Source: Mesobacillus persicus | GTDB taxonomy: Bacteria > Bacillota > Bacilli > Bacillales > Cytobacillaceae | Assembly: GCF_900109925.1 (NCBI RefSeq) | Contig: NZ_FOBW01000012.1 | Span: 1-64,000, forward strand | DNA length: 64,000 nt | Reading direction: 5' to 3' | In this document: positions 39,453 to 41,445 of the stretch, in pieces | Layout of the letters: every line of letters starts with the position of its first letter | Numbering within the stretch: the first letter of the stretch is position 1 | Program-made: the position numbers and the translations under genes | The notes under the pieces: model-generated | What the model was told of the DNA's origin: nothing | What the model saw: only the letters and a program-made list of their open reading frames with translations | Databases searched by the model: none

Positions 39453-39498
39453 GGGGACGGTTCTCTTGCTTCCTTCTAGGAAGCAGAGGAACCGTCCC
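39453..39498. repeat. REP-like palindrome between convergent genes
   Basis: GGGGACGGTTCTCTTGCTTC(C) and its inverted copy fill the space between the scrK stop and the FrnE-like stop, 5 bp from each. No other terminator is visible here. Confidence 0.92.
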
Positions 39499-39503
39499 TA
39501 CTT

Positions 39504-40208
39504 TTATTTCTTAGGAATTTCGCAGCCGTCATCGTCACAGACGGCGTTGTCTTGTCCGTTAAGGACGGTGACTTCGTCTGCTTCTGCGATGACTTTTTGT
39601 AGTGCTTCTACGAATACTTCGGTAGGTTGTGCACCTGTAAGGGCGTATTTATTATTGAAGAGATAGAACGGAACGCCGGTAACGCGATACTGCTTCGCTA
39701 GCTCTTCATCCGCACGGACTTCATCCGTCATCGCATCACTTGCAAGCATTGCAGTTACAGCTTCACGCTCTAATCCAACTTCTACTGCCAACTCTGTTAA
39801 TGTCTCATGGTCGCCAATATGTTTGGATTCTGTGAAGTACGCTTGTAGAATTCGTTCGGTCATCTCGATCATTAACCCTTTGGTTTTCGCGAACATCGTC
39901 AAACGGTGGGCGTCAAAAGTATTGGTTAAGATGAGGGTATCCATCTGATAATCTAACCCAACTTCTTTTGCCATACGCACCATGTTTTGGGTGTTAGCTT
40001 TCGCCTGTTCGATACTCATCCCATACTTTTGAGCTAAGGCTTCATACATGTTTTTGTTCACGTTTTTCGGCGTGTTCGGGTCCAATTCGAAGCAACGATA
40101 AGTAACCTCGAAAGGGTGATCTATTTTCTTAAGGGCGTCCTCCAGACGCCTCTTGCCAATATAGCAAAATGGTCAAGCAAAATCAGTCCACATTTCAATT
40201 TGCAACAT
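39504..40208 (-). CDS. FrnE/DsbA-like oxidoreductase with in-frame TGA at the active site (candidate selenoprotein)
   Basis: 234 residues if TGA is read through. From ATG 40208, preceded by GGAGGGAACAGATC, the frame reads MLQIEMWTDFA, then TGA (40173-40175), then PFCYIGKRRLEDALKK...CFELDPNTPK, and continues to a TAA at 39504. FrnE-family proteins have CPFC at precisely this place, so the TGA replaces the first catalytic cysteine (codon 12) and would give a Sec-Pro-Phe-Cys redox centre. The rest of the gene is intact, with the second family motif TGVPFYLFNNKYALTGAQP near the C-terminus. The hairpin at 40131-40154 could be a SECIS element. The protein would act as a thiol or selenol disulfide oxidoreductase in the cytoplasm. 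A nonsense mutation is the competing explanation, leaving at most a 193-residue product without active site. Confidence 0.75.
40131..40154 (-). promoter_or_regulatory. Candidate bacterial SECIS hairpin
   Basis: In the mRNA, GGCGUC and GACGCC form a 6-bp GC-rich stem with loop UGGAG; a bulged A and an AAG/CUU pairing extend it below. The loop begins 28 nt after the UGA and has G as its second base. This fits the general bacterial SECIS pattern (loop about 16-37 nt after UGA, G among the first loop bases). Confidence 0.55.
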
Positions 40209-40280
40209 GATCTGTTCCCTCCAATCAATTAATCACCTCTAGTATATCTATTATTCCCTTGTTTCACTAATAATTGGTTT

Positions 40281-40301
40281 GGGGACGGTTCTTCTGCTTC
40301 C
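40281..40301. repeat. REP-like half-unit (forward)
   Basis: GGGGACGGTTCTTCTGCTTC(C) upstream of both the FrnE-like and the RAYT gene. Confidence 0.88.
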
Positions 40302-40647: not shown

Positions 40648-40662
40648 GGGGAGTGATGTTTG

Positions 40663-41445
40663 ATGGCTCGTGGGCCTAGGGTGAAAAGTGAGAGTGGAAT
40701 TTATCATGTTATTTGGAAAGGGGCGAATAGGCAGGAATTGTTTCATGATGAAGAAGACAGTGTTGTGTTTTTCAACTTTATCGCAAAGTATAAGGTTCGA
40801 GCGGAGTTGAAGGTTTTTGCTTGGTGTTTTATGAGTAATCATGTACATCTCTTATTAAAAGAAGGCAATGAAGACTTAGCAGTGACTTTGAAACGGTTGG
40901 GTGTTAGCTATGTCTTGTATTATAACCGGAAATATGACACAACCGGGCATCTCTTTCAAGATCGCTATCGAAGTAGGGCAGTCGAGGATGTTGGCTACTT
41001 ACTAAGAGTCATCCGCTATATACACCAAAATCCAGTAAAAGCAGGTCTAATCAACCGGGTTGATGACTGGAAATGGAGTAGCTGTCAGGATTATTACGAC
41101 TTTAAAAATGGACTTCGAAAATTGGTTGATCGGGATTTCGTTTACGAGCTGTTTTCAGATCAGCCAACCGTTGCTAAGGAAAAGTTTAAAGAATTTAATG
41201 AGCTGGCACCATCTAATCAAGATGATTCATTCCTCGATGAAGGGGTCAAGAAGAGGTTAACAGATGATGAGGCGCGGATAGAGATAAAGAATGTTTTAGG
41301 TTTGGTTGAGATAGCTCAAGTCAAGGGCTTACCGCGTCTACAAAGGGATGAAGCGTTACGTAAAATTAAAAAGATAAAAGGAGTGACGCAACGTCAGGCT
41401 TCGAGAATTGTAGGTGTTTCAGTTAATCTTATTTATAAAGCTTAG
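40663..41445 (+). CDS. REP-associated tyrosine transposase (RAYT, Y1_Tnp family)
   Basis: About 260 residues. The N-terminal IS200-like Y1 transposase domain shows SGIYHVIWKGANRQELFHDEED, the HUH metal-binding motif in FMSNHVHLLLKEG, and the helix YLLRVIRYIHQNPVKAGL with the candidate catalytic tyrosine. A C-terminal extension of about 90 residues ends in a helix-turn-helix-like segment (GVTQRQASRIVGVSVNLIY). RAYTs act on single-stranded palindromic REP sequences and are usually immobile single-copy genes. Here the gene lies between REP-like units at 40281, 40619 and 41625, which argues that it handles this family. The start at 40663 follows GGGGAG by 9 bp. Confidence 0.9.
   Translation: MARGPRVKSESGIYHVIWKGANRQELFHDEEDSVVFFNFIAKYKVRAELKVFAWCFMSNHVHLLLKEGNEDLAVTLKRLGVSYVLYYNRKYDTTGHLFQDRYRSRAVEDVGYLLRVIRYIHQNPVKAGLINRVDDWKWSSCQDYYDFKNGLRKLVDRDFVYELFSDQPTVAKEKFKEFNELAPSNQDDSFLDEGVKKRLTDDEARIEIKNVLGLVEIAQVKGLPRLQRDEALRKIKKIKGVTQRQASRIVGVSVNLIYKA

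Follow-up and report, generated by a model that had tools for sequence, protein, structure and literature searches.

A predicted selenocysteine-containing FrnE protein of the DsbA family in Mesobacillus persicus and its relatives among the Bacillales

DsbA-like selenoproteins have been in print since 2005, when a Sargasso Sea study presented UXXC-containing members of COG2761 (PMC1088965), and the first-pass annotation of the DNA considered here was right to say that such proteins have been described. A later survey listed four of them (PMC1794560), a survey of 2016 listed 45 in 41 organisms (PMC5029168), and the family is included in two reviews (PMC9312934, PMC13188914). In the available text of these reviews the name FrnE does not occur, and Bacillus is named only for selenite reductase. 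A 2006 survey counts three selenoproteins in Bacillales, with their names lying outside the available passage, and the tables of that survey and of the 2016 one may already include Bacillales members. Among the papers listed in an open-licence library on FrnE, selenoproteins, bacilli and genome annotation, we found nothing on the protein described below.

FrnE proteins are predicted cytoplasmic thiol oxidoreductases (PMC8945050, section 2.4). The FrnE protein of D. radiodurans, DR0659, is assigned to COG2761 (PMC1978522); it is a proposed disulfide reductase whose active site is regenerated by a C-terminal CX4C motif, and the mutant shows sensitivity to both cadmium and diamide (PMC8945050, section 2.4). 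In Listeria, the DsbA-family protein Lmo1059, which has a CPFC motif, is a strong GSSG reductase (PMC10715225).

The locus of this study lies in a window of 64,000 nucleotides, the whole stretch analysed (M. persicus contig NZ_FOBW01000012.1, positions 1 to 64,000 of the forward strand). In the current NCBI taxonomy Mesobacillus belongs to the order Caryophanales; we keep the name Bacillales in its older sense. A frnE-type gene occupies 39504..40208 on the minus strand. As the first-pass annotation had stated, translation from 40208 to 39504 meets one internal stop only, a TGA at 40175-40173, and the ATG at 40208 is preceded, 8 nt upstream, by a good ribosome-binding site, GGAGGG (40217..40222, minus strand). 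The frame opens with MLQIEMWTDFA, resumes after the TGA with PFCYIGKRRLE and ends with CDDDGCEIPKK and a stop codon. The TGA (40173..40175, minus strand) is codon 12 and stands, as had also been claimed, at the first cysteine of the FrnE CPFC motif; translated as selenocysteine (Sec), it gives an active site Sec12-Pro-Phe-Cys15 (UPFC at residues 12-15) in a predicted protein of 234 residues. The ORF list for the locus holds just a TTG-started ORF of 193 residues (39504-40085), the headless product that had been foreseen, and a plain table-11 ORF call would shorten the gene to it. Judged from sequence, the gene very probably encodes a selenoprotein, a predicted thiol oxidoreductase that belongs to the DsbA family and within it to the FrnE branch.

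With Cys substituted at the TGA, the window protein matches the Pfam family DSBA (PF01323) at 2.3e-45. Its best solved relative is a D. radiodurans FrnE chain, 5cnw (residues 2-233, E 7.3e-49), the order being 5cnw and 5cp1, both named FrnE, and then 3gl5, a putative DsbA oxidoreductase; the CPWC of D. radiodurans FrnE aligns with U12-P-F-C15 of the window protein. Only 11 residues precede the active site, which leaves no room for a signal peptide. Because none of the NCBIfam models reaches its cut-off with this protein, its enzymatic role rests on the FrnE homologues, and by that homology the best reading of the product is a cytoplasmic selenol-disulfide reductase. A C-terminal CX4C motif is present as CDDDGC (39522..39539, minus strand; C224-X4-C229), with its role taken from D. 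radiodurans FrnE (PMC8945050, in the part available), and homologues suggest that it probably recycles the window enzyme. The motif is a feature of many FrnE members, not of all. Among the named loci treated below, it is absent from the Planococcus, Planomicrobium and Aquibacillus copies and from some others; the copies of these three genera end before CX4C, and recycling there must therefore differ. Gene neighbours offered no clue to function, the commonest neighbour family occurring in just 11 of the 80 named loci, so that frnE stands alone.

The genome possesses the machinery for Sec insertion. Its tRNA-Sec scores 63.5 bits (gathering score 47) and is called by ARAGORN as tRNA-SeC with anticodon tca, and SelB (366.9 bits, cut-off 242.25), SelA (576.2 bits, cut-off 267.9) and SelD (395.3 bits, cut-off 125) are likewise over their cut-offs. 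From these four components it is concluded that the genome decodes UGA as Sec. Among 14 control genomes, tRNA-Sec was over cut-off in five, SelB in two, SelA in one and SelD in two; only over-cut-off matches were counted, as the searches for tRNA-Sec and SelB also give weak signal in control genomes. The SelD gene itself has an in-frame TGA, and a hairpin, AGUCC-UGA-GGACU, follows its UGA (seen without a chance control).

In a sample of 201 genomes, consisting of the organism's own and 200 relatives, SelA was over cut-off in 141. This count is at odds with the earlier remark on the rarity of selenoproteins in Bacillaceae: among the sampled bacilli, Sec machinery is common rather than rare. A match to the protein was found in 188 of the 201 genomes, and in 78 (own included), all of them read directly, codon 12 of the best match is TGA, with cysteine in other homologues. 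With the own genome counted, the best matches (E 6e-86 or better) come from 79 genomes, namely these 78 and one with TGT (G061), and the TGA-type matches outrank all Cys types but that one. SelA is present in 77 of the 78, the lone exception being a genome that is 81% complete (G084). When G152, a genome with TGA at the active-site codon of a Cys-type gene, is added, SelA is found in 78 of 79 active-site-TGA genomes versus 63 of 122 others (Fisher p 2.9e-15, a value that is only a guide because the genomes are related).

A scan of named genomes, whose species overlap with the 201-genome set, kept 80 of 111 confirmed loci, and the active-site codon is TGA in 79 and TGT in one. These loci come from Mesobacillus, Neobacillus, Cytobacillus, Fictibacillus, Robertmurraya, Peribacillus, Rossellomorea, Planomicrobium, Planococcus, Aquibacillus and other genera. 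There are 119 distinct TGA-containing coding sequences, with frames open on both sides of the TGA. The amino acids of codons 4-11, before the TGA, are kept in 117-119 of the 119 genes by silently variable codons, and those of codons 13-19 are nearly invariant. These patterns bear on the possibility that the UGA is a true stop, in which case an 11-residue leader peptide would be followed by a restart at the TTG at 40085. The 193-residue ORF in the ORF list would be the product of such a restart, but this protein would be without the UPFC site, and the amino acids on both sides of the TGA are nearly invariant across the 119 genes, with many codons silently variable. We regard the stop-and-restart explanation as very improbable; a minor product of restart could still be made.

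A SECIS-like hairpin lies within the coding region at 40134..40150 (minus strand), seen on folding and supported by its conservation in Sec versus Cys sequences. Its 6-bp stem, GGCGUC/GACGCC, is formed by 40150-40145 pairing with 40139-40134 around the loop UGGAG (40144-40140); when the U of UGA is numbered 1, nt 26-31 pair with nt 37-42. The first-pass annotation had placed the start of the hairpin 28 nt downstream of the UGA, a distance that holds for the loop, whereas the stem begins after 22 intervening nucleotides. The distance rule for bacterial SECIS elements is 16-37 nt. The window hairpin, with its conserved structure and its loop UGGAG 28 nt after the UGA, fits the description of such elements, which have a small apical loop containing G (PMC1088965, in the part available).

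It is the conservation of the hairpin across relatives, not its folding energy, that exceeds chance. The 68-nt stretch of the window taken alone has an ordinary folding energy (z -1.17; equalled by 30 of 200 shuffles). Comparisons were made among 85 distinct Sec sequences (from 157 rows) and 29 distinct Cys sequences (from 30 rows), the counts omitting L070 (the G152 gene) and the Cys loci L099, L109 and L243-L253, of which the last series is in the tree described below. Stem cells are paired in 97.5% of cases in the Sec set versus 39% in the Cys set, and sliding the pairing partner in the Sec sequences, as a control, gave 18-65%. Five or all six of the stem pairs are retained by 84 of 85 Sec sequences versus one of 29 Cys sequences, and the loop begins with UGGA (UGGAN) in all 85 Sec sequences. 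The hairpin is thus kept with TGA and mostly missing from Cys homologues. Median folding energies for nt 21-46 are -9.4 kcal/mol for Sec and -2.7 kcal/mol for Cys, with at least one Cys sequence folding as strongly as Sec ones (-11.9 kcal/mol). Silent sites within the hairpin are frozen in the Sec genes: Leu22 is CTG in 119 of 119 genes (16% of Leu codons elsewhere in the same genes), Arg21 is CGT in 95 of 95 (34% elsewhere) and Gly18 is GGC in 117 of 118 (27% elsewhere). In Cys homologues the Leu22 codon is TTA in 18 of 29.

Covariation was scored in an alignment of 22 rows, in which 97.7% of stem cells pair and the covariation score is 0.277, neither value being equalled in 500 shuffles. A compensatory change from G-C to A-U occurs in five of the 22 rows (10 of 500 shuffles as high), and one of the six stem pairs is altered on both sides. 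The two measures least inflated by relatedness, the count of double-change pairs and the count of further pair types, were not above shuffles in this alignment (468 and 461 of 500 as high, respectively). The case for the hairpin therefore rests more on the contrast between TGA and Cys genes and on the codon freeze than on pair covariation.

Low-level readthrough of UGA occurs in bacilli, and the codon might accordingly be read by another residue, such as a near-cognate Trp, rather than by Sec. Against this explanation, the codon is solely TGA, TGT or TGC in all 110 loci fetched from the 201-genome set and in the 80 named loci, TGA-type frnE tracks SelA, and the presence of the hairpin tracks TGA; we give it hardly any chance. 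Still less probable is that an ordinary Cys-type frnE has been misread in sequencing or has lately acquired a nonsense mutation. Such an origin would suit a single internal stop at a position where Cys homologues have Cys, but the TGA recurs in 78 genomes, in 79 of 80 named loci and in 119 distinct coding sequences, its flanking frames are open and the hairpin is conserved with it; the same TGA in so many assemblies excludes sequencing error. A pseudogene was set aside together with these alternatives. The reading proposed in the first-pass annotation, a Sec-Pro-Phe-Cys oxidoreductase, is supported by the Sec machinery, the recurrent TGA and the conserved hairpin, and every genome-based test that could have refuted it came out in its favour.

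The Sec-type genes form a coherent group. In a tree of 96 rows, made by quick search with residue 12 masked and with SH-aLRT support only, 56 Sec rows and one Cys row group together with support of 100, and there are three Sec/Cys label changes overall. The Cys row (L043, from G061) sits inside the Sec clade beside L030 (support 94) and has the codon TGT; its hairpin has decayed, yet G061 keeps SelA. This reads as a Sec-to-Cys reversion with loss of the hairpin. The third label change is L070, a TGA within the Cys clade in a SelA-positive genome (G152), with a weak hairpin whose 8-nt loop has no early G; it may represent a separate gain of Sec or else an error. At L068 and L069, matches that each contain one TGA by count, the active-site codon is TGT. 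Some genomes contain both kinds of FrnE, G025 and G044 among them, each with one listed match with TGA and one without. In a scan of the phylum, 31 of 299 genomes gave a match; outside the order, matches of at least 39% identity covering the active site had no TGA, which was seen only in remote matches (26-33% identity; scored by presence, not position). A plasmid search returned 845 records, all below 60% identity. We conclude that the Sec-FrnE proteins of Bacillales are a large branch with its own frozen SECIS, probably of single origin. The group, with its Sec clade, Cys clade and Sec-to-Cys reverter, lends itself naturally to asking what a disulfide reductase of the cytoplasm would need selenium for.

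Since the Sec machinery, the UGA and the hairpin are all present and conserved together, a scheme for the window gene can be proposed. Guided by the downstream hairpin, SelB would deliver Sec-tRNA(Sec) at the codon-12 UGA. Sec12 would be the attacking residue and Cys15 the resolving residue of the predicted cytoplasmic thiol oxidoreductase. By homology, disulfide reduction during oxidative or metal stress is the enzyme's probable task, and its return to the reduced form is probably the work of the Cys224-X4-Cys229 pair, as in the proposal for D. radiodurans FrnE. Under selenium shortage, ribosomes would be expected to halt at the UGA, leaving the cell without the enzyme.

Other genes with an in-frame TGA were observed in the same genome. 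A second DsbA-like gene lies outside the window (L192, 1501-2097; G000:C23:322744 onwards, plus strand), matches PF01323 at 8e-29 and is about 29% identical to the first; its TGA falls at U-P-F-C, with a different hairpin, GCGGA-GUU-UCCGC (without a chance control). Of the 28 loci of this family that were read, out of 30 fetched and with the own genome included, 11 have TGA and 17 have Cys, and inspection by eye shows a GCGGA/UCCG-type hairpin in all of the former and none of the latter. A formate dehydrogenase alpha subunit (FdhA) gene, over cut-off, also has an in-frame TGA (L254; G000:C24:54196-56217), followed by a hairpin, GUCGCC-GGUCU-GGCGAC (without a chance control), and a further Fdh-like match with TGA is at G000:C33:114955-115707.

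It is conceivable, and in our view rather doubtful, that Sec-FrnE is a main reason why Bacillales keep the Sec machinery. In a subset of 81 genomes, 29 have Sec-FrnE, and 22 of these also have an FdhA match that holds a TGA (scored by presence, not position). The other seven (G002, G014, G023, G042, G123, G124 and G139) have no TGA-bearing FdhA at E 1e-150; among the matches listed, the second DsbA-like gene with TGA occurs in G139 only and in none of the other six. If the idea were true, a stress-linked cytoplasmic selenol-disulfide reductase, perhaps together with SelD, would be the sole Sec client found in those six genomes, where FdhA and the second DsbA-like family were examined.

The surroundings of frnE contain repeats. 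The sequence GGGACGGTTC occurs in 39 copies in the window (0.09 expected by chance), for example at 39454-39498 and 40282-40291, many of them in nearby inverted pairs, as in a REP-like palindrome family; one palindrome lies just 3′ of frnE, with arms at 39454-39474 and 39478-39498. A Y1_Tnp (IS200-like) transposase gene at 40660-41445 (plus strand) adjoins the palindromes, and is possibly the REP-associated transposase (RAYT) that spreads them.

Finally, we return to the described systems. The DsbA-like selenoproteins of COG2761/PF01323 in print, assigned in the available text to marine metagenomes, Deltaproteobacteria, Clostridia and Asgard archaea, have the same DsbA fold as the window protein, with Sec first in UxxC and a SECIS downstream; the link to them is through COG2761/PF01323 and the UxxC motif. 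D. radiodurans FrnE (DR_0659; 5cnw) has its Cys-Pro-aromatic-Cys motif at the same position and shares the C-terminal CX4C, but its motif is Cys-Pro-Trp-Cys, with cysteine where the window protein has selenocysteine. Listeria Lmo1059 (PMC10715225), likened here by its description in the available text, is of the DsbA family like the window protein but is a Cys enzyme. The Cys-type FrnE proteins of Bacillales, with CPFC, are about 48-56% identical to the window protein among the matches listed, fall outside the Sec clade and have TGT or TGC as the Cys codon; the hairpin is missing in 28 of the 29 distinct Cys sequences, which include the TGT row inside the Sec clade. Because UXXC selenoproteins of COG2761 have long been known, the window protein is not a new kind of selenoprotein; it belongs to a branch that is new and widespread but of a kind already known.
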